From NCBI GenBank assembly GCA_029555925.1, contig JAKPQU010000312.1, positions 1 to 52,040 on the forward strand: a DNA stretch of 52,040 bases. The letters are read 5' to 3'. This document shows positions 3 through 30,793 of this stretch, piece after piece. Position 1 is the first letter of the stretch. Each line of letters begins with the position of its first letter. Source of the DNA: Bacillota bacterium. Lineage in GTDB: Bacteria > Eremiobacterota > SpSt-956 > JAKJGF01. Below the pieces are notes generated by a model, which had not been told where the DNA came from, searched no databases, and was given only the letters and a program-made list of their open reading frames with translations. A program made the position numbers and the translations under genes.

Positions 3-3000
3 GCAGAAATTCAGGGTAAAACCGATGAAGACGGGAATTTTACTTTTGAACAGTCTCTGGAAAAATATCTTGTAGGGCAGCCTCTTGAAGGAGGCAAAGG
101 TATGGTTCGTTTCACTGTTGAGGTAACAGATAAGGCAGAACATAAAGAAATAATCTATGAGACGCTTTTCGTATCAAAAGATACTGTTCAGATTACACTT
201 GTGCCGGAAAGTGGGGAAATAGTACCGGGTATAGAGAATATACTTTATCTTATTACGTCTTACCCTGATGGTACACCATGTAGAGCAACTGTTTCCATGA
301 AACTTGGACAGCAGGGCTCTCAGAGATTTCAGACATCCTCTACAGGCATAGCAGAATTTACCCTGAAGCCGGAGTTTATGGGCAGACAGATTGAACTCAG
401 TGCCAGTGACGGACTCGGTAATTCCGGTGCTATGACCTATGTCCCTCAAACAGGTCAGACTGCAGAATCCATACTTCTCCGTACAGATAAAGCTGTTTAT
501 AAAGATTCCGATGTTATGAATCTGGAAATTCTTTCTTCTACGGAAGGCAGTGTATTCCTGGATATAGTTAAAAACCGTCAGACACGGCTAACTAAAATTC
601 TTACAGTAAAAGATAAACAGGCAAAAATCGATATATCTCTTACAGATACTCTGGCCGGCACATTACAGATTAATGCTTACAGACTTAAAAAAGACGGCAA
701 TTTTACAAAGGATACAAAGACTGTTTATGTTGAGACGAGCAAGGATTTATCTGTAAAAGTAAGTTCCGATAAAGATATATACAGACCCGGTCGTTCAGGC
801 AAGATAGATTTCGAAGTTAAAGATAAAGAAGGAAAACCGGTGTCTGCCGCCCTCGGTATCTCGGTGGTGGATGAAAGTGTTTTTGCCCTTGCGGAAAAGG
901 AACCGGGGCTGGAAAAAGTTTATTTTACCCTGGAACAGGAACTGTTAAAACCGAAGGTTGAAGTATGCAAACATTATATTGACAGGGTAAGTGATGATCT
1001 TGTAAGGAAGAAAAATGACCAGGATACTGCAAAGGTCGCTTTCTGTTCCATACCTGAAGCTCCCTATTCTATTATGATAAATACCTATCCCGAAAGACTT
1101 GCCAGAATAATGGCACTTCAACAGAAATATTTTTATTTTCTTCAGTGGTTCGGCATGCTCTGTGTTATGCTTATTTTAATATTATCACCTGCCGCTATAC
1201 TCGTTCTTACTTTTTATAACGAGCTTTTAAAGAGAAAAGATGAAGAGAGGTTTATTCCTGTTAATAATGATAACCTTGTGGCAATGCTTGTTTATACGGT
1301 AGGATTTTTTCTTGTATTTCTGACACCTTTCGTTGTTGCAATACTGATTCTTATTATATCGGAAACGGTTAACGGTTATCACGGAAATGAAGAGTATGGT
1401 GCTCTTATATTTTCTATGGTAGCCATGACAGGTGCAGCTTTTGTCTATATAATAATCTTAAGGAATAAAAAACAATGTGAAGATATAAAGAAATTTAATA
1501 CTCTCTGTTACTCCTTTCACCTGATACAGTTATTTCTTACAGGATTAATTTTAACCATGGCTCTTCTGCTGGCCTGTGTCATGACAGGGAAAGATCAGAT
1601 AGGTGGTATATCAATCTTCTTACTCTTTCTGACAGGTGTTATTTCTTCTATCTTTATGAATTTTATCCTTATTTATAATGCCCGGTCTCATTGCAGTAAA
1701 CACAGGAAATCCAATCTCTGGCATTTTATATATAACTGCGGATGTGTTGTTATTGCAGGAGTTTGTGTGGCAGGAATCCTTTTTGCCGTAATAGCACCCA
1801 ATTTTTTAAAAGCAAGGGCACAGGGGCCGCCGCCTTCAACTGTGACTTATGACATTGATACAACAAGTAAATCCATTAATACATTATCTGCAGGCGAAAC
1901 ATCTCCCAATTATGAGTCGGGGCAGGGGCTGATGCTGGATGGTGGCGGATTTTCAGGTAAAAAAGAAATAGTTCAGAATGAACCTTCCGGCGCCCAAATC
2001 TCCCGGACCAAAACGTCTCAGGAACTGCCTGCCTATTTGCGTCAGTATTTCCCTGAAACAATGTATTTCAACCCGGAACTTATAACAGACGAATATGGCA
2101 AAGCTTCTGTTATACTTAAAATGGCAGATTCCATAACAACCTGGAGGATGGGTGTTTCCGCTTCTTCTATGAAAGGAGATACGGGAGGCACTGATTATCC
2201 CATAAAGGTATTTCAGGATTTCTTTATTGATCTTGACCTTCCTCTTAACCTCACTTCAGGTGATGAAGTGTCCATTCCTGTTGCAGTATACAATTATCTG
2301 CCAGAAAAACAGGATATAGATTTAATAGCTGTACAGGATGACTGGTTCGAGCTGTTATGCAAACCTGCCAAATATTTATCCCTCGGTGCAAATGATGTAA
2401 CTGTTGTCTACTACCCGGTAAAGATACATGATACGGGAAAAAAGAAATTTACCGTTTATGCAAAAACAGAAAAAATGAAAGACGGTATAAGTAAATCTGT
2501 GACAATAATACCGAATGGGAAAGAAATTCGTCTTGCAGAAAATGGCTGGCTCAGAGAGCGTGTTTCTGCCGGTCTGAATATACCGGAAAATGCCATAGAG
2601 AAATCTTATGATATGTGGGTAAAGATTTACCCCGGCATGTTCAGCCAGTTAGTGGAAGGACTTGACAGTATGCTTACAATGCCCTATGGCTGATTTGAGC
2701 AAACTACGTCGGTGACGTATCCAAATATTATGGTTTTAGATTATATGAAGGCTTCCGGACAGATTACACCTGATATTCAGATGAAGGCAGAATACTATAT
2801 AAATCTCGGCTACCAGAGACTTATTACCTTTGAAGTTCCTTCCGGGGGATTTTCCCTTTACGGAGAAGCTCCTGCTTCTGTATGGCTTTCTGCCTACGGC
2901 CTTATGGAAATGTATGATATGAATAAGGTATATCCGATTGATGAAAAGATTATTGATAGAACAAAACAGTGGCTTATTTCTCAACAATCTCCTGACGGTT

Positions 3001-4136
3001 CCTGGAAGGCGGATTCTTACAGTTCCTGGGAAGCTGCAGGTAATACGAATTCCGATTTACGTGTAACGGCTTTTGTGGCATGGTCTCTTGCACAGAGCGG
3101 ATATGAAGGAGAACCGCTCAGGAAGGCTGTTAATTATATAAAATCCTCTATAAATAAGGAAAAGGATTTTTATACTCTCTCTCTTGTGGCAAATCTCCTT
3201 TTATATACAGACCCGAAGGGACAGGAAACGAAAAATCTTCTTGAAACTCTTTATAAAGGAAGAACGGAAAATAAAGACAGTGTTTCATGGACAACAGATG
3301 GGAGAACCCTTACGGAATCATATGGAATGACTGCCAGTATTGAAACAACGTCCCTTGTGACACAGGCTTTTTTACGCTCAGGCTCCTGCGGTGATGCTGT
3401 GGAGAAAGCCCTGAAATTTCTGGCTGTGTCCAAAGATACTAACGGCACGTGGTATTCCACCCAGGCTACTGTACTGGCACTGAAGACCCTTGTTCTTTCA
3501 ATAAATACAGATATGGGTAAGAACAGCAAAGGGAAAATACATGTTCTTGTTGACGGGCAGGAAGCAGGCACTCTTGACATTATTCCCGAACAGAGTGATG
3601 TAGTTAAACTCCTGGACCTTAAAGGCTATGGACGGGAAGGGAACTTTAAAGTAGATCTTGTGCCTGAAGGTGATGTAAGATGTATGTACCAGATTATCTA
3701 TTCTTATTATATACCATGGTCTTCTTCTCTGAATTCGTCAGTGGAGAAATCACCTGTAAATATTTCTATCAAATATGACAGGACTGAACTCAAACGTAAT
3801 GATATATTACGTGAGATGGTAACTGTGAATAACAGTTCGGCAAAACCGGGAGAAACAGTAATCATAGATCTTGGAATTCCTCCCGGCTTTGATGTGATTA
3901 CCGATGATTTTGATAAGCTGCTCAATCAGCAGAAGATAGAAAGATTTGACATGACAGGAAGACAGGTAATAGTCTATCTGAAGAGACTTGAACCTGGAAA
4001 ATCTTTCGATTTTTCTTACGGTCTGAGGGCTAAATTCCCGGTAAAGGTTACAACTCCTGTTTCACAGGTTTATGAATATTATAATGCAAATACCAGAGGC
4101 TACTCTGTTCCCGGAAAGATTGAGGTGAAGTTATAA
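3..4136 (+). CDS. Alpha-2-macroglobulin family protein with in-frame TGA (predicted selenocysteine) at the thioester site; 5' end outside window
   Basis: One frame is open from the window edge to TAA 4134-4136, about 1377 visible residues, except for a TGA at 2691-2693. Flanking residues read MPYG-[TGA]-FEQTTSVTYPN, the A2M thioester motif (PYGCxEQ, then PNI.VLDY), so the TGA replaces the thioester Cys, visible residue 897. The part before it has MG-type beta domains with a DESVFAL motif near 287-293, then about six membrane segments (about 373-608) ending in a pilin-like NFLKARAQG, a low-complexity linker, and the conserved ..YFPETMYFNPEL.. domain. The part after it is the alpha/alpha thioester domain and a receptor-binding-like domain. 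A2Ms trap proteases covalently through a Cys-Gln thioester; this one looks membrane anchored. The GTG at 2712 lies inside the hairpin and has no Shine-Dalgarno, so a second start is unlikely. The alternative is a nonsense mutation. Family assignment is very secure; Sec is inferred. Confidence 0.85.
2691..2719 (+). promoter_or_regulatory. Candidate bacterial SECIS element with UGA selenocysteine codon
   Basis: The TGA at 2691-2693 is followed after 11 nt by a perfect inverted repeat: TACGTC (2705-2710), loop GGT (2711-2713), GACGTA (2714-2719). The loop starts 18 nt after the UGA; in E. coli fdhF the GGU of the SECIS loop starts 19 nt after it. A short stem close behind the UGA with G (GGU) in a small apical loop is what SelB recognises. 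The stem is coded by ACG, TCG, GTG and ACG codons, G+C-rich choices for this AT-rich gene, which fits RNA-level constraint. Sec machinery (selA, selB, selC, selD) is not in the window. Confidence 0.72.
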
Positions 4137-4834
4137 TGGAACATAAAATAAATTTCAACAGAATTATATTCGCAGTGGTTTCCATACCCTTTCTAATTAC
4201 TCTGACTGTAGCAGTATTAACACGAGAATTAGCCCCTCTTATGGGGCTGTCTCTGATTATATTCTTTTTATCACCTGCAGGGCTCCTTTTTATGACTTTT
4301 TATAACGGTTATCTTAAAAGGAAAGATAAAAACAGGTTTCTTCCTGCAGATAACAGTGAGAATTTAAAAGCCATAATAATCTATCTTGCAGGATTTTTCG
4401 TTATACTCCTGACACCTTTTATACTAATCGGTGTAATTGCTATTATAACGAATTTCATGCATCTGTACGGCCTCAGAGAGGAACAAATGCTCATAATCCC
4501 TATAAATATTTCCATAATTATTTCAGCAGTCTATATGATAATGCTGGAAAACAGAAAAAAACTGGATGATATAAAGGCAATAGATACACTGAAAAATTCT
4601 TTTTTATTCATGCAGTTATTTACTGTTGCCGTTATAATTTTTATCGCCATAATTGTCTATTCTATTGTGTGTGAAACCACACCTGAGGCTTATTTTACAC
4701 ACTTAAGATGCCTCATATTACCCGGAGTTGCAGGTGTTTTTTCTATGCCCTATATACTCTTTTTTAACGTTATTTCCCATGTCGCCAGGCAGAAGCTTTT
4801 TATGGATACTAAGTCAGATCCTTACACAGAGTAA
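4136..4834 (+). CDS. Polytopic membrane protein, paralogue of the A2M membrane module
   Basis: This 232-residue protein has about six hydrophobic segments and no recognisable enzyme motif. Its ATG (4136-4138) shares the A of the A2M stop codon, so the two genes are translationally coupled. Residues near 58-95 (TFYNGYLKRKDKNRFLPADN, then an LTPF-containing segment) match the module inside the A2M protein (TFYNELLKRKDEERFIPVNN, then LTPF), with the same order of hydrophobic segments. It therefore seems to be a free-standing copy of that module and may associate with it in the membrane; this is inference. It ends at a heptamer repeat facing the convergent transporter gene. A short stretch resembling its C-terminus recurs near 40.2 kb. 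Confidence 0.8.
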   Translation: MEHKINFNRIIFAVVSIPFLITLTVAVLTRELAPLMGLSLIIFFLSPAGLLFMTFYNGYLKRKDKNRFLPADNSENLKAIIIYLAGFFVILLTPFILIGVIAIITNFMHLYGLREEQMLIIPINISIIISAVYMIMLENRKKLDDIKAIDTLKNSFLFMQLFTVAVIIFIAIIVYSIVCETTPEAYFTHLRCLILPGVAGVFSMPYILFFNVISHVARQKLFMDTKSDPYTE

Positions 4835-15286: not shown

Positions 15287-15337
15287 GTGAGTCGTGAATC
15301 GTGAGTCGTGAGTTGTTGTATTATCCTTCACTTTTCA
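15287..15337. repeat. Heptamer array between two reverse-strand genes
   Basis: GTGAGTC, GTGAATC, GTGAGTC, GTGAGTT from 15287, then an opposite-sense CTTCACTTTTCAC arm near 15327-15337 that overlaps the last codons of the tubulin-like gene. It lies between that gene's stop and the deacylase start. Confidence 0.75.
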
Positions 15338-18300
15338 CTACGAACAGACTTTATATATTCCTGGATTACGTCCCTTTCATCTGACAGAATTACTCTTTCT
15401 GTCATAATTTCGACTAATTTTTTTATAATATTATCTTTTCCTTTATCTTCTATTAACTTCTGCAGTTTTTCTTTTATCATAACCATTAATTCCGGATTTT
15501 CCGAGAGATTTTCATATATTTCATCTTCTTCCATATCGGGAGGTGGAATATAAACTTCAAGAAGTCTGGCAGGAAGATAGGTTCTTCTTATATGGTGGTA
15601 TTTTTCCGTCATCTTAAGCGGTACAGGGTCAGTAGCAGCATCTTCAATGGCAGAATACATTTTTTGAGCAGAAATAAATTTATAACTTTTTCTCATTTGA
15701 TTAAATGATTTCAGAGCAAAAAGAGGTACTCCTGTTTCTACCTGTCCCAGAAGTATTAAATGGCGATCATTCAGACTGAAAAATATCATGTTGGAAAAAT
15801 TTTCTTTAAGGCCTTTTGCAATAAAACTTTCCTCTGATGCAGAGACACCGCAAAAATATATCTTTCCTGTATTTCCTCTCTGGCATATTTTTATCTCATC
15901 TACAGTCCAGAAAGGATGGCTCATTTTAAGTATTTCACTTATCTTATCCAGAGAATTATCCTGTTTTCTGAGCAGTTCGTCGGCACTCATTTCTTCTATA
16001 AAGCTATAGCGGTTCCAGAGGGATTTTCTTATTTTTTCTTTTAAGTATCCCTGCTCTTCATCCCAGCTACCGAGATTGTCGTAAAGCTCTTTCCCTTCAT
16101 AAGCAATAGTATCAGGGCCGTCTTTTCTGTATCCTTCTATATCTTTATCTGTTATAAGCAGATAGGTAAGGGAACCCTGCGGTTCAAATATTTCTTCTTT
16201 TGCTTCTTTACTTTCTTCTCCCAGCTCCTGAGCAATAGCTGATAGTTTTTTTATCGTTTTATCCAGATAATCTTTTTTACTCAAGCAGATTTCCTCCATG
16301 CGGTCAATCTGCTTGAGTTTGAATTTAACTGATATAAGCTGTCCTTTGTTCAGTATTTTTTTATCTATATGATTGAAGAGACTATCCTGTGCTTCGAAGT
16401 ATTTCTCATAATAACGTTTCCATGACAGAACATATTTTATAAAATAAACTATATAGGTAAAGAATATCATTACAAGAGGTATTAACAGCAGAAGGAATGA
16501 AATGATACTAGAAATTATTATAATGACAGGTAGTCCCAGAACCGGTAAGATAGACAGATATCCTATTAAATTAATCCTTCGTGCAGGTAATACGGTTCCT
16601 ATAAATGGTATTACAAAAGAATCTATGGTAGATTGCAGCATGTCAAAGGTTTTGAAATGTTTTTCTTCATCTTCTTTAACAAGACCTTCCGTATATCTGA
16701 GTTTTTTCTGCAGTTCTTCTTTTTTAGCTTTTATTTCCGTGTGAATTTTCTCCACACAGGCAAGAGCACTTTTTAGAGCACAGGAACTATCGGCAGAAAG
16801 TGTATCTATATGTTTTTTTATATTATTTTCCAACTTTTCTAAATTTTCCTGTAACTGTTTTGCAAAATCTTTTTCTGTTTCCTCCAAGAATCGGCTTTCC
16901 AGAAGACCTGCTTCATGTTTTATGCGATTGACCAGTACAGAAGGGTCTGCATTCTCAAATTGTTTTCTGTCAAGTTTCGGTGTCTTTGGTATAAAAGAAC
17001 TGTCTTCTATAGAGTTAATAAGATTTATGGAAGCATCGGTTTCTTCTTTTAATTTACTTTCTGAAAAATCTTCTCTTATAAACAGTTCTGAAATAATCTT
17101 TTCACCGAGAAGGCAGGCACAGTGTTTTCTTACCAGCGTTGCAGGGAAGTACATAAGACTTATTCCGAAAGAGCCGTAAGAAGTATTTTTACCTGAAATA
17201 TCACCCTGAAGCGATGCAGATATGGCCGGAAGGGATTTGATGCTTGGCCCCAGGGGTGTTACTATCATAGCCCTGAGCATTTCCCGGAACATCTTTTCTC
17301 TTTCTTTCTCACTTTCAAGGGCAAATCCCTTGCTGTTTATATAATCTACAAGAAACACTGTTTTAAAAGGTTTATCGGAGTTTTCTATTTCATAGAGACC
17401 GGGATAATAATATTGCTTAAATCCTTTACCCTGAAGGAAATGATCCAGTTCTGCCAGAGAAATGTAAGACAGTGATTGTATTTCGTTTTTATCCTGTATT
17501 TCTCCTTCCAGCACTGCAGGCAGCAGAAAGAGACCGAATCTGTTTGATGTACCGTGATTATATATGACCCTTTCTTCTATCAGATAGATAGTATCTATAT
17601 ATATACCTGTTGCCAGAGGATCATCAAGAGAAGCTATTAGAAATATATCAAAATCATTTGCATCTGCAAGTTCAAAACCTTTTTCATTTAAAATTTTCCT
17701 GTTAGATATAAGTGTTGTATCCCTTAATTTTTGATCTATTTTTCCTGAAATACTGTCAATGTTTGCCCAGAATATTGATCTTGAACCGGCTCTTACTGCT
17801 TCCTTCAGATCTTCTGCCGTGGCATCTCTATTTTTTATTTTCTTTATCTCATTTTTAATCCATCTGTTATATTCTCCCCAGGTACAACTTTTCTTTTCCA
17901 TGTCATCCGGTACGGATTTCGGAAGCAAGATCATTTCATCCATAGTAAGGCTGAGTTTTATATTTACCGGCGTTATAGTTTCTTCTTTATCGGAAGGAAT
18001 AAAATAACTCTTTATAAAAGCGGTAAATTTTGAAAGAAATTCGTCTTTATCATTCAGTTTCAGCCATTCAGTTTCTATGAGTTTATCAAATTTTTCCTGT
18101 ATTTTATTAATCCTGTATGTTAACTTTTCATAGTGTTTCCGTTTTTCTGCATATATATCCTGTTTTTCGTCGATTTTTTCTTCATAAATATTTCCTTTGA
18201 TTTTTTCCTGAATATAGCAGATTATATTCAGGTTATTCCCGATTTTTTCTATTTTATCTTTAATAGCTGCAGAGAGATGGGATAGTAATTCAATAACAGC

Positions 18301-19089
18301 TTTACAGGATTTCCCTGTAACGATAAGGTTTAATTCTTTCTCAAGACATTCGATAAGTTTTTTTCTATGGCCTGGAAGGGCTGACTCTGTGACAGATATA
18401 GTATTTTCAATTAATTTTGTTTTTTCCGCCTTTTGAAATTCCCTCTCTTTATTTATTTTTTCCTCCTGTTTTTTTAATGTAACCTCTGTGTGAGCGATAG
18501 TTTTTTCAATTGCCTCGAGAAAAGCCAGGGTGTTTTTATCTGCCAGTTTACTGTATTTAATCTCTTCTTCCAGGTCATAAACAGTTTTTTCTTTTCTGGA
18601 GGAGAGGTTACCTGCAATGATTTTTTGAATCTTTTCAATACCTTCTATTTCAAATTTTCTGCTGTTTTCTTCTATGGCTTTTTTTAGACCTGCTGCATCA
18701 TAGCCCATATAAGGCTTTTCTTCAATATTTATTTTTACAATATCTCCTTCTTTTTTACGGAGGAGATTTTCTATAAGTCCTGTTTCATCTTTTTCTCTCA
18801 ATTTATTTTCATCGATAAACACTTCCGCATTTCGAAGAGTTACGGAAGAAGCTCTTTTTAACCAGTCTTCGAGCAATTCTTTTCCCAGCCTGAAGGAAAA
18901 GAAATCCTCTATGATTGCTTTCTGATTCTGTTCTTCCAGGACTTCATCTTTAAAATTAACAGAGAGGAATTGAACAGAAGGTAAGTGGCCGAAATTGGAA
19001 AATAGTTCGCTTTTAAATTCTTCAATGATTTTTTTCCCCTGTCTGCCAAGTCCTATGACCAGTGTCGGTTTGATTGCCCGTAAAGACAT
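15328..19089 (-). CDS. Tubulin_2-like giant protein with coiled coils and membrane anchor
   Basis: 1253 residues. The start KPTLVIGLGRQGKKIIEEF with HLPSVQFLSVNF resembles the bacterial Tubulin_2 family (GTP-binding tubulin/FtsZ-like fold). Near residue 486, FLIASLDDPLATGIYIDTIYLI aligns with the position of the family's Gly-rich nucleotide loop (SLaGGTGSG), but that loop is degenerate. The YGSFGISLMYFP motif near 650 also fits. Long coiled coils occupy about 180-390 and 700-830, two or three membrane helices lie near 840-890, and another soluble region follows. It may be a membrane-attached scaffold or polymer; the weak Gly motif questions GTP binding. The ATG follows AGGAGC at 7 bases. Confidence 0.65.
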   Translation of the reverse strand: MSLRAIKPTLVIGLGRQGKKIIEEFKSELFSNFGHLPSVQFLSVNFKDEVLEEQNQKAIIEDFFSFRLGKELLEDWLKRASSVTLRNAEVFIDENKLREKDETGLIENLLRKKEGDIVKINIEEKPYMGYDAAGLKKAIEENSRKFEIEGIEKIQKIIAGNLSSRKEKTVYDLEEEIKYSKLADKNTLAFLEAIEKTIAHTEVTLKKQEEKINKEREFQKAEKTKLIENTISVTESALPGHRKKLIECLEKELNLIVTGKSCKAVIELLSHLSAAIKDKIEKIGNNLNIICYIQEKIKGNIYEEKIDEKQDIYAEKRKHYEKLTYRINKIQEKFDKLIETEWLKLNDKDEFLSKFTAFIKSYFIPSDKEETITPVNIKLSLTMDEMILLPKSVPDDMEKKSCTWGEYNRWIKNEIKKIKNRDATAEDLKEAVRAGSRSIFWANIDSISGKIDQKLRDTTLISNRKILNEKGFELADANDFDIFLIASLDDPLATGIYIDTIYLIEERVIYNHGTSNRFGLFLLPAVLEGEIQDKNEIQSLSYISLAELDHFLQGKGFKQYYYPGLYEIENSDKPFKTVFLVDYINSKGFALESEKEREKMFREMLRAMIVTPLGPSIKSLPAISASLQGDISGKNTSYGSFGISLMYFPATLVRKHCACLLGEKIISELFIREDFSESKLKEETDASINLINSIEDSSFIPKTPKLDRKQFENADPSVLVNRIKHEAGLLESRFLEETEKDFAKQLQENLEKLENNIKKHIDTLSADSSCALKSALACVEKIHTEIKAKKEELQKKLRYTEGLVKEDEEKHFKTFDMLQSTIDSFVIPFIGTVLPARRINLIGYLSILPVLGLPVIIIISSIISFLLLLIPLVMIFFTYIVYFIKYVLSWKRYYEKYFEAQDSLFNHIDKKILNKGQLISVKFKLKQIDRMEEICLSKKDYLDKTIKKLSAIAQELGEESKEAKEEIFEPQGSLTYLLITDKDIEGYRKDGPDTIAYEGKELYDNLGSWDEEQGYLKEKIRKSLWNRYSFIEEMSADELLRKQDNSLDKISEILKMSHPFWTVDEIKICQRGNTGKIYFCGVSASEESFIAKGLKENFSNMIFFSLNDRHLILLGQVETGVPLFALKSFNQMRKSYKFISAQKMYSAIEDAATDPVPLKMTEKYHHIRRTYLPARLLEVYIPPPDMEEDEIYENLSENPELMVMIKEKLQKLIEDKGKDNIIKKLVEIMTERVILSDERDVIQEYIKSVRSEK

Positions 19090-27619: not shown

Positions 27620-28093
27620 ATGATACTCAAGAATTGTATGAAGGATGTCATTGCTATTCGACCTTCAACTACCGTCAGGGAGGCGGCGAAATTGATAATT
27701 GAAAGGCGCGCAGGGACACTTCCTGTAGTGGATGATAATGAAACTCTCGTAGGAGTGGTAAGGCTTCCCGGTATTTTAAAGGTCTTTATGCCTAACTTTG
27801 TTTCTTTACTGGATAATATTGATTTTGTAGCTGACTTCGGCTCCCTCGAAGAGCTTCATTTCAGCGATATACCGGAAATAGAAAATATTACTATGAAAAA
27901 AATTATGGAAAAACCTGTCCTTGTAGACGAAGAATGCGGCCTGTTACGGGCTTTTGCCATTATGGATAAATATAATTTTATGGATTTACTCGTTGTAAAT
28001 AAAGAAGGTCGTCTTGTCGGTATTGCTTCCCGTGTGGATATTGCCGCAGGATTTCTCTCTGCTTCCATGGAAAGCGGAGGTGCTCTGACATGA
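27620..28093 (+). CDS. CBS-domain pair protein
   Basis: 157 residues forming two CBS motifs (Bateman module): MKDVIAIRPSTTVREAAKLI with GTLPVVDDNETLVGVV, then IMEKPVLVDEECGLLRAF with LVVNKEGRLVGIASRVDI. Such modules bind adenosine nucleotides or SAM and gate enzymes or transporters. The stop overlaps the ATG of the ArsB/NhaD gene (ATGA), so the two proteins are coupled and the CBS protein probably regulates that transporter. The Shine-Dalgarno AAAGGAG lies 11 bases upstream. A degraded second copy of this gene's 3' end precedes the second transporter. Confidence 0.85.
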   Translation: MILKNCMKDVIAIRPSTTVREAAKLIIERRAGTLPVVDDNETLVGVVRLPGILKVFMPNFVSLLDNIDFVADFGSLEELHFSDIPEIENITMKKIMEKPVLVDEECGLLRAFAIMDKYNFMDLLVVNKEGRLVGIASRVDIAAGFLSASMESGGALT

Positions 28094-29385
28094 CAGTGCC
28101 TCAGATTATTGCTCTTGTTATTTTTATCCTTACTTTTACTCTTCTCATTACCGAAAAGATTCACCGTACTATTGCCGCCATGATCGGCGCTTCCGTAATG
28201 GTAGGAAGCGGAATAATAATGAATTTTTATTCTGCTGAAGAAGCGCTTCATACAGTCGATTTTGAAACGCTGGGGCTGCTTCTGGGAATGATGATCCTTG
28301 TAAGACTCCTTCAGCAAACAGGTTTTTTTCAGTATGCCGCAATTGTGACTGCAAAAAAATCCGGAGGGAATGTATGGTTTCTCATGGTATTCCTCGGTGT
28401 AACTACATCTGTTTTATCTATGTTTCTGGATAATGTTACTACAGTTGTTCTGATTGCTCCCGTAACAATATTGATTGCCGAAATGCTTAATATAAGTGCC
28501 GTTCCTCTTCTCATGGCAGAAGCTATGCTGTCAAACATAGGAGGAGTTGCCACCCTTGTAGGTGATCCTCCAAATGTGATAATAGCTACTGTCACAAAAT
28601 TTACTTTTCTGGATTTTCTGACTCATCTGGCTCCAATGTCTCTTGTGGCATGGTTCGTTACTCTTGTTGTATTCAGAATAGTTTTTCGTAAAGAACTGTC
28701 TGCAAAACCTAAAAATATAAAAGGACTTATGAGTCTGAATGAAAAGAAAGCCCTTAAGGATCCGCAGAATGCCAGAAAAATACTGACAGTTCTAGGTTTT
28801 GTAATAATATTTTTCTTCTTACAGGGTCTGCTTCATCTAACTCCTGCCTATGTGGCTCTGACAGGAGCTTCTCTTGCTTTACTGCTTGTACGTCCTCCTA
28901 TGGAAGAGACTATAAGTCATGTTGAATGGAATGTTCTTTTATTTTTTGCATCTCTCTTTATATGTGTGGGAGGACTGAAATTTTCCGGATTATTAGAATT
29001 ATTCTCAACAGGTATAGTTGGCCTTGCCAGAGAGAACCTTTTATTTGCCGATCTGCTTTTACTATGGGTTGGTGCAATAGCATCAGGAATTATAGATAAT
29101 ATTCCATTTACCATAGCCATGGTTCCTGTGATTCAAAAACTGGGGGACATGGGTATATGTGTTTCTTCACTCTGGTGGGCTCTTGCCCTGGGCGTCGGTT
29201 TCGGAGGGAATGCCACTCCTATAGGTTCTACTGCCAATGTGATAATTGTATCTTTGAGTGAAAAGACAAAAAAACCGATATCTTTTAATCTCTGGCTTCG
29301 TACCGGTATTCCAGTTATGATTTTTACATGTCTTGGTATAAGTGTATTATTTATTATATTCTTTAAATGGATGAATACACCGTAG
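28090..29385 (+). CDS. ArsB/NhaD-family ion transporter, copy 1
   Basis: 431 residues with about 11 membrane segments of the ion transporter superfamily that includes ArsB, NhaD and P-protein relatives. Visible motifs: FLDNVTTVVLIAP, the paired LSNIGGVATLVGDPPNVI and IDNIPFTIAMVPV, and GGNATPIGSTANVI, the two half-repeats' signature loops. Substrate is either Na+/H+ exchange or an anion; the sequence does not decide, but the neighbours (CPA1 antiporter, P-type ATPase, CBS regulator) favour cation or pH homeostasis. It overlaps the CBS gene by ATGA. Copy 2 downstream is nearly identical over its length. Confidence 0.85.
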   Translation: MTVPQIIALVIFILTFTLLITEKIHRTIAAMIGASVMVGSGIIMNFYSAEEALHTVDFETLGLLLGMMILVRLLQQTGFFQYAAIVTAKKSGGNVWFLMVFLGVTTSVLSMFLDNVTTVVLIAPVTILIAEMLNISAVPLLMAEAMLSNIGGVATLVGDPPNVIIATVTKFTFLDFLTHLAPMSLVAWFVTLVVFRIVFRKELSAKPKNIKGLMSLNEKKALKDPQNARKILTVLGFVIIFFFLQGLLHLTPAYVALTGASLALLLVRPPMEETISHVEWNVLLFFASLFICVGGLKFSGLLELFSTGIVGLARENLLFADLLLLWVGAIASGIIDNIPFTIAMVPVIQKLGDMGICVSSLWWALALGVGFGGNATPIGSTANVIIVSLSEKTKKPISFNLWLRTGIPVMIFTCLGISVLFIIFFKWMNTP

Positions 29386-29394
29386 ATGACAGAT

Positions 29395-29501
29395 AATATA
29401 ATTTTATGAATTTATTTGATGTAAAGAGAGAAAAGCGTCCTGCAGGAGGTATTATGGCAGGATGTTTTTCTGCGTCCATGAATGGAGATGTTTTATTATG
29501 A
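29395..29501 (+). pseudogene. Remnant of a duplicated CBS gene 3' end
   Basis: In frame this reads FMNLFDVKREK..MAGCFSASMNGDVLL-stop, matching the end of the intact CBS protein (FMDLLVVNKEG..AAGFLSASMESGGALT-stop) with an internal loss. It ends at the same ATGA junction with the transporter. It shows that the duplicated unit was CBS plus transporter and that the second CBS copy was mostly deleted. Confidence 0.75.
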
Positions 29502-30793
29502 CATTGTCTCAGATTATTGCTCTTGTTATTTTTATTCTTACTTTTACTCTTCTCCTTACAGAAAAGGTTCACCGCACTATTGCAGCGATGGTGGGCGCTT
29601 CCGTAATGGTAGGAACCGGGATAATAATGAAATTTTATTCTGCGGAAGAAGCGCTTCATACAGTTGATTTTGAAACACTGGGACTGCTTCTGGGCATGAT
29701 GATCCTTGTAAGACTCCTTCAGCAGACAGGTTTTTTTCAGTATGCAGCAATTGTGACTGCAAAAAAATCCCGGGGTAATGTATGGTTTTTACTGTTATTT
29801 CTGGGTGGAATTACATCTGTTTTATCTATGTTTCTGGATAATGTTACAACAGTTGTTCTGATTGCTCCCGTGACAATATTGATTGCTGAAATGCTTCATA
29901 TAAATGCCGTGCCTTTTCTTATGGTAGAAGCCATGCTTTCAAATATAGGAGGAGTTGCCACTATGGTAGGAGATCCTCCCAATGTTATAATAGCCACTGT
30001 CACGAAATTTACTTTTCTGGAGTTTCTGACCCATCTCGCTCCTATGTCTCTTGTTTCATGGGCTGTGACATTGATTCTTTTCAGAATAATTTTTCGTAAA
30101 GAACTGTCTGCAAAACCTAAAACTATAAAAGGCCTGATGAGTCTGGATGAAAAGAAAGCCCTTAAAGATCCACAGGATGCGAGAAAAATATTGACAGTTC
30201 TAGGTTTTGTAATAATATTGTTCTTTTTACAGGGGGTACTTCATCTTACCCCTGCCTATGTAGCTCTTACGGGAGCTTCTCTTGCTTTACTTATTGTACG
30301 TCCTCCCATGGAAGAGACTGTACGTCATGTCGAATGGAATGTTCTCCTGTTTTTTGCCTCTCTGTTTATCTGTGTGGGAGGGTTGAAATTTTCAGGGTTA
30401 CTCGAGTTGTTTTCCTGCGGTATAATTGAGCTGGCAAGAGAAAATATATTACTTGCAGATATGCTTTTACTCTGGGTAAGTGCAATAGCTTCAGGCGTTA
30501 TTGATAATATTCCTTTTACAATAGCTATGGTTCCTGTGATTCAAAAATTAGGAGAAATGGGCATACAGGTCACTTCTCTCTGGTGGGCTCTTGCCCTTGG
30601 CGTTGGCCTGGGAGGCAATGCCACTCCTCTAGGTTCTACTGCCAATGTAATAATTGTATCTTTAAGTGAAAAAACTAAAAAACCGATTTCTTTTAATTTC
30701 TGGCTTCGCACTGGTATTCCTGTAATGATCTTTACATGTCTTGTTATAAGTTTATTATTTATTATTTTCTTTAAATGGATGAATACACCGTAA
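29498..30793 (+). CDS. ArsB/NhaD-family ion transporter, copy 2
   Basis: 431 residues from the ATG at 29498, matching the start of copy 1 (MTVPQIIALV versus MTLSQIIALV). An earlier in-frame ATG at 29462 lies in the CBS remnant and is rejected. It is nearly colinear with copy 1 and keeps all transporter loops (FLDNVTTVV, GDPPNVI, DNIPFTIAM, GGNATPLGSTANVI). Substitutions are mostly conservative at loops and helix ends, suggesting both copies are functional. Without an intact CBS partner of its own, it may share the first CBS protein. Its stop lies 39 bases inside the 3' end of the opposing P-type ATPase gene. Confidence 0.85.
   Translation: MTLSQIIALVIFILTFTLLLTEKVHRTIAAMVGASVMVGTGIIMKFYSAEEALHTVDFETLGLLLGMMILVRLLQQTGFFQYAAIVTAKKSRGNVWFLLLFLGGITSVLSMFLDNVTTVVLIAPVTILIAEMLHINAVPFLMVEAMLSNIGGVATMVGDPPNVIIATVTKFTFLEFLTHLAPMSLVSWAVTLILFRIIFRKELSAKPKTIKGLMSLDEKKALKDPQDARKILTVLGFVIILFFLQGVLHLTPAYVALTGASLALLIVRPPMEETVRHVEWNVLLFFASLFICVGGLKFSGLLELFSCGIIELARENILLADMLLLWVSAIASGVIDNIPFTIAMVPVIQKLGEMGIQVTSLWWALALGVGLGGNATPLGSTANVIIVSLSEKTKKPISFNFWLRTGIPVMIFTCLVISLLFIIFFKWMNTP

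Follow-up and report, generated by a model that had tools for sequence, protein, structure and literature searches.

A bacterial alpha-2-macroglobulin gene with UGA at its thioester cysteine codon and a SECIS-like hairpin, likely read as selenocysteine that would then form an internal selenoester

We analyzed a continuous stretch of 52,040 nt (the window), which begins within a gene for an alpha-2-macroglobulin (A2M) (Table 1). The Pfam domains PF00207, PF07678, PF07703, and PF07677 all scored above their curated cut-offs on the A2M frame. We found a single in-frame stop before the end of this frame, the TGA at codon 897, and the sequence around it reads ATG CCC TAT GGC TGA TTT GAG CAA ACT ACG TCG GTG ACG TAT. 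The motif PxGC-x-EQ with its Cys is absent from the protein; PYG-U-FEQ keeps every residue of the motif except the Cys, whose place is taken by the UGA. Three full-length neighbors, P0002 (86% identical; source name Candidatus Eremiobacterota), P0003 (84%), and P0004 (68%), have Cys at this site. TGA ends ordinary genes in the window (11 of the 31 stops counted across 30 ORFs, the internal A2M stop being one of the 11). Since TGA is a usual terminator there, we ruled out a reassignment of UGA across the window.

Table 1. Positions of the A2M gene, its domains, and the elements around the UGA in the window
Feature	Position	Strand	Remarks
A2M frame, 1377 residues plus stop	3..4136	+	One UGA read through; 5' end outside the window; Pfam A2M_BRD, A2M, TED_complement, A2M_recep
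A2M bait-region domain PF07703, residues 159-296	477..890	+	Pfam
A2M domain PF00207, residues 686-772	2058..2318	+	Pfam
Thioester domain PF07678, residues 881-1164	2643..3494	+	Pfam; split by the UGA
Thioester motif PYG-U-FEQ, with Gln900 as would-be acyl donor	2682..2702	+	Alignment
UGA codon 897, predicted selenocysteine, at the thioester Cys position	2691..2693	+	Cys aligned in P0002, P0003, P0004, and CD109
SECIS-like hairpin TACGTC-GGT-GACGTA, 11 nt after the UGA	2705..2719	+	Stem 2705-2710/2714-2719, loop 2711-2713
GTG codon, Val904, seven residues past the UGA	2712..2714	+	Spans loop bases 2-3 and base 1 of the 3' arm; where the apparent ORF 2712-4136 mechanically starts
Ser1008	3024..3026	+	Alignment; aligned with a His of CD109
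Receptor-binding domain PF07677, residues 1285-1365	3855..4097	+	Pfam; 3' of the UGA

Between the bait-region domain and the A2M domain, the gene encodes six hydrophobic segments (positions 1125-1817). The next gene (4136-4834) encodes a membrane protein homologous to this stretch (37% identity over 184 aligned columns; E 4e-30). The last hydrophobic segment (1791-1823) ends in IAPNFLKARAQ, which we take to resemble the N terminus of type IV pilins or GspG; a related A2M, P0064, carries the source name "type II secretion system protein GspG." Elsewhere in the window, the minus strand at 15328-19089 encodes a 1253-residue protein with a tubulin-like domain (PF13809, 73.7 bits), and two adjacent, very similar membrane-protein genes (28090-29385 and 29462-30793) form an apparent tandem duplication (28090-30793).

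The hairpin stem begins 12 nt and its loop 18 nt after the UGA, with 11 and 17 nt, respectively, in between. The original prediction had described a 1377-codon frame broken once by a TGA on the thioester Cys codon, TGA as a normal stop elsewhere in the window, and a 6-base stem with a GGU loop from 18 nt after the UGA, and the coordinates and stop counts bear this description out. The published bSECIS model describes a stem of 4 to 16 bp, a loop of 3 to 9 nt with G in the first two loop positions, a UGA-to-loop distance of 16 to 37 nt, and a minimum free energy of at most -7.5 kcal/mol (PMC13188914). We found that the window hairpin fits this geometry (6 bp, 3 nt, GG, and 17 nt). Set against the energy limit of the model, it gave -5.4 kcal/mol when 30 to 40 nt were folded, -5.8 for 45 to 50 nt, and -7.7 for 55 to 60 nt. 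The folding energy of the short hairpin (-5.4 to -5.8 kcal/mol) is unexceptional, with z values of 0.42 and -0.40, and shuffled sequences fold equally well. The specificity of the hairpin comes from its geometry.

We found the exact geometry (11-nt spacer, 6-bp stem, and 3-nt loop) at 4 of the 1875 TGAs on both strands of the window, and among these four, only that of the A2M has a long open frame around it (896 codons before it and 480 after). When all positions in the window were counted, the exact geometry with G first in the loop occurred at 10 per 104,000. Under a looser rule (6-bp stem, GGT in the loop, 15 to 25 nt away), a hairpin lies downstream of 11 of 14,683 codons in the window genes, some of these being this same hairpin, and downstream of none of the 177 Cys codons. 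When the same peptide was recoded synonymously with the codon usage of the window, the samples contained that hairpin at a rate of 1 in 100,000 and a 6-bp stem of any kind at 3.5 in 10,000. The stem is built of codons that are rare in the window: ACG (95 of 885 Thr codons), TCG (53 of 997 Ser codons), and GTG (133 of 948 Val codons). On the counts for TGA geometry and synonymous recoding, we rejected a chance hairpin.

Rfam and tRNA scans of the 52,040-nt window gave no match. A scan of GTDB contigs yielded one relative of the window, the contig L001 of genome G001. Its orthologue of the window A2M has TGT at the site and no stem. G001 encodes the machinery for selenocysteine (Sec): selB (398 bits), directly followed by a tRNA-Sec (69.3 bits; anticodon tca according to ARAGORN), selA (545.8 bits), and selD (376.8 bits), all above curated cut-offs. 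The selD gene itself has one in-frame TGA, in the motif AAG-U-ASK (1528-1530 of locus L072), followed by the hairpin AGGTCC-GGA-GGACCT. This Sec form of SelD (TIGR00476) is a different protein from the A2M and shares with it the UGA, the 11-nt spacer, the 6-bp stem, and the 3-nt loop with G first. The two stems have one of six pairs in common; the other five differ, with both sides changed. Among 58 relatives of G001, tRNA-Sec scored at least 62 bits in 43 and above the cut-off in 45, the lowest of which may be tRNA-Ser, because each of the 14 control genomes also matched to some degree, 5 of them above the cut-off. Sec decoding thus looks common in the phylum of G001. Our literature search for Eremiobacterota together with selenocysteine found no paper.

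We also searched the 58 relatives of G001 for A2M proteins and found a match in 33, with one in-frame stop among the matches listed. The stop-bearing gene is also in G001, on another contig, and has a single TGA, which lies on the thioester codon. Over the matched part, its product is about 48% identical to the window A2M. It reads MPGG-U-FEQTTSLTYPD, and its hairpin is TACGTC-GTT-GACGTA, with the spacing seen in the window. Both types of A2M, with Cys and with UGA, thus occur in one genome, G001. That the stems are identical does not count as independent evidence of descent, since few such stems can be coded within the shared peptide TTS-x-TY. For the G001 gene, ViennaRNA favors another pairing of the 5' arm and gives the stem pair probabilities of about 0.02. 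At loci matching PxG[C/stop]-x-EQ, we tabulated stems that lie 15 to 25 nt away and carry G in the first two bases of the loop, counting G-U as pairs. A 6-bp stem occurs in none of the 25 Cys-type A2M genes in this table; one has 5 bp, and the others have at most 4.

The window gene and the G001 gene are the only two A2M genes in which the stop was read as UGA in DNA. DNA pattern searches for more of them in 388 and 375 genomes (widely overlapping sets) gave no further real case. Five pattern matches lay outside the phylum of G001, none of them an A2M, and a second match inside the phylum was also no A2M. Beyond the 149 genomes of the phylum lay 239 others; protein searches in 80 and 77 of these found A2Ms (E ≤1e-30) in 7 and 5 genomes, none with a stop. 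A tblastn search of plasmids with a C-terminal fragment gave no match, and a DNA pattern search and an alignment search of viral contigs found no such A2M. One member of the phylum, G018, carries a protein identical to P0047, which is named Candidatus Eremiobacteraeota.

To follow the break in protein records, we searched a database of 5.8 billion proteins with the parts of the window protein before and after the UGA, restricting length to a range in which most full-length A2Ms do not fall. The upstream query found 392 matches, and among the best 120, which were listed, 89 break off after PxG, immediately ahead of the thioester Cys position. The Cys is present in the remaining 31 (in 30 it was recognized by the first motif, and P0324 has it as GCFEQS), and none of the 120 stops elsewhere before the site. 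The 89 include P0266, which is 100% identical to, and the N-terminal part of, the UGA gene of G001; for all the others, the stop codon is invisible in the protein record. Two close neighbors, P0242 and P0243 (sharing 94% and 90% identity with the window where compared), end at the same residue. The fraction of 89 in 120 is no frequency in nature, because the searches favor relatives of the window and keep long proteins out. The 89 carry the source names Candidatus Eremiobacterota, Chloroflexota/Chloroflexi, Anaerolineae, and Candidatus Eisenbacteria. A pattern search for Chloroflexota 16S rRNA was positive in none of the 388 genomes.

The downstream query found 441 matches, and 75 of the best 120 lack the thioester motif. 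Among these listed fragments, 73 start within 20 residues past the site, one at 30, and one at 55; their source names are Chloroflexi and, on records marked partial, Armatimonadota. The start lies at an NTG codon, the seventh residue after the UGA position, in 44 of the 75, which coincides with the place of the GTG in the window hairpin. Eight of these 44 are written as Leu at that residue, and Leu stands there in none of 193 Cys-type proteins. Part of this pattern is selection by gene callers, which need a start codon. Six pairs of N- and C-terminal fragments agree in the size of the longest contig of their source (36032, 29581, 11879, 9534, 9249, and 5838). Scattered stops and a hairpin that is not conserved had been named as signs against the original prediction. 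Instead, the listed upstream matches end at one residue or hold the Cys, and the hairpin recurs in the UGA-type A2M of G001, with its geometry also present in selD. A genome lacking selB and selC was another such sign, and G001, the one relative from the contig scan, has selB and tRNA-Sec next to each other.

We then built a FastTree phylogeny from up to 230 residues before the site for 276 A2Ms, 91 of them stop-type and 185 Cys-type. The tree left out the query, the motif-less C-terminal fragments, and proteins with neither PxGC-x-EQ at residue 200 or later nor, among P0242-P0359, a PxG end; the rows L040 and P0266, both kept, are one gene. We found at least 13 changes between Cys and stop, against a mean of 76.4 and a minimum of 65 in 500 label shuffles. 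The stop-type forms clades yet switches repeatedly with Cys, including among the nearest neighbors of the window. Compared with L001, pN/pS was 0.286 before the UGA (111 codons) and 0.323 after it (475 codons). Purifying selection acts on the frame both before and after the UGA.

Taken together, the position of the UGA, the hairpin, the machinery in G001, and the recurrence of the break lead us to conclude that the UGA of this A2M is very likely decoded as Sec. The fuller reading, that a bacterial A2M gene with UGA at the thioester Cys codon and a SECIS-like hairpin is read as Sec and that this residue would then form an internal selenoester with the nearby Gln, is in our judgment likely. According to this model, SelB and charged tRNA-Sec would bind the hairpin so that Sec is inserted at the UGA, and the folded thioester domain would join Sec897 to Gln900 as an internal selenoester. 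Once the bait region is cleaved, the Sec897-Gln900 bond would lie exposed, and the acyl group would pass to an amine of the attacking protease, which would thereby be held covalently in the trap. Selenium, as the better leaving group, may make this capture faster. Given Sec decoding, the protein is probably such a selenoester protease trap.

The CD109 His aligned with Ser1008 is, we assume, the catalytic His of the C3 type. By analogy with the complement isotypes C4A and C4B, Ser1008 in place of the CD109 His points to direct attack by amines, which would be favored over hydroxyls. Work on bacterial A2Ms describes how cleavage of the bait bares a Cys-Gln thioester that is able to bond the protease (PMC4498604). 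In model chemistry, aminolysis of a phenyl selenoester is reported to be about six times faster than that of an activated thioester, and stronger activation is reported to speed hydrolysis as well (PMC7232547). These rates make faster capture plausible, with stability as its cost.

We considered three other readings of the break. In the one that survives best, the UGA is read as Sec, but no ester with Gln900 forms, and the residue acts as a free selenol, for example in redox defense or metal binding. Many known selenoproteins are described as thiol-based oxidoreductases or as resembling them (PMC13188914), which would fit a free selenol. Such a residue would not need the Gln or the rest of FEQT, yet these are kept in both UGA genes read in DNA. 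In addition, the surrounding domains are ordinary A2M domains, and repeated swaps of Sec and Cys at one site in one family suggest the same role for both. We regard the free selenol as unlikely.

Far less probable is that the UGA is a real stop and the NTG seven residues on a restart, giving a two-piece A2M that lacks a thioester. The 44 listed fragments that begin at that NTG, with a GTG at the same place in the window, are what a restart would produce, but the NTG can equally be explained as a by-product of the loop sequence together with the need of gene callers for a start codon, and the other 31 of the 75 begin elsewhere. Moreover, the break sits exactly on the Cys codon and not nearby, FEQTTS between the stop and the NTG is kept in both genes read in DNA, and the stem geometry is that of the UGA-coded selD. 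Least credible of all is that the TGA is a base error, or that a gene in decay has recently mutated from Cys to stop. A single base separates TGA from TGC or TGT, and three close relatives have Cys, but we rejected both explanations on the recurrence of the same end in 89 of the 120 listed matches, two of them close neighbors, and on a pN/pS that past the UGA stays about as low as upstream. A second gene, in G001, has the same stem.

The selenoester reading sets this protein beside several known systems. The bacterial A2Ms ECAM/YfhM of Escherichia coli and SaA2M of Salmonella are described as having bait-region, thioester, and C-terminal macroglobulin domains and a C-x-E-Q site (PMC4498604), all of which the window protein shares; it differs in its predicted Sec in place of Cys and in its six hydrophobic segments between the bait and A2M domains. 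Among CD109, human A2M, and complement C3, the best solved relative by sequence is CD109 (8s3o, E 2.6e-42), whose PYGC-x-EQ aligns with PYGU-F-EQ of the window protein. The differences from CD109 are again the predicted Sec for Cys and also Ser1008 for the aligned His. A 2026 account of 119 prokaryotic selenoprotein families and subfamilies describes Sec at positions where homologues keep Cys, with a bSECIS just past the UGA (PMC13188914), as here.

A2M is absent from Table 1 of that account, which lists the 119 families and subfamilies and cites some from two papers of Haft and coworkers, and a word search of its text found neither "macroglobulin" nor "thioester" (PMC13188914). The same two words are absent from the searched text of PMC12013277, PMC9312934, and PMC1794560. 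A literature search for selenoprotein or selenocysteine with A2M or thioester found nothing related by title or start of abstract within its coverage, outside of which lie preprints and most subscription papers. The Cys form of CTP-synthase-type glutamine amidotransferases makes a passing glutamyl thioester during catalysis. The entry nearest in chemistry in the published table is a predicted glutamine amidotransferase related to CTP synthase, with the motif GxUxG (PMC13188914). The ester there is passing, whereas in A2M it is stored. A predicted precedent for Sec in acyl transfer therefore exists if the passing intermediate of the amidotransferase counts.

With some reserve, we lean toward the view that these genes encode a natural stored protein selenoester. 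This would be a widespread class of bacterial A2Ms, many of them in Chloroflexota, in which an encoded Sec is the acyl warhead of a protease trap, a non-redox role repeatedly acquired and given up in exchange with Cys. Many of the selenoproteins known so far are redox proteins or look like them (PMC13188914). If true, the 21st amino acid would gain a further use, that of leaving group in a built-in acyl ester. The family is apparently a large selenoprotein family, which gene callers have split into two ORFs labeled "hypothetical protein" or truncated A2M. Its Cys- and stop-type versions stand side by side, with at least 13 switches on the 276-protein tree, and may offer a way into why cells pay for selenium without an obvious redox step.
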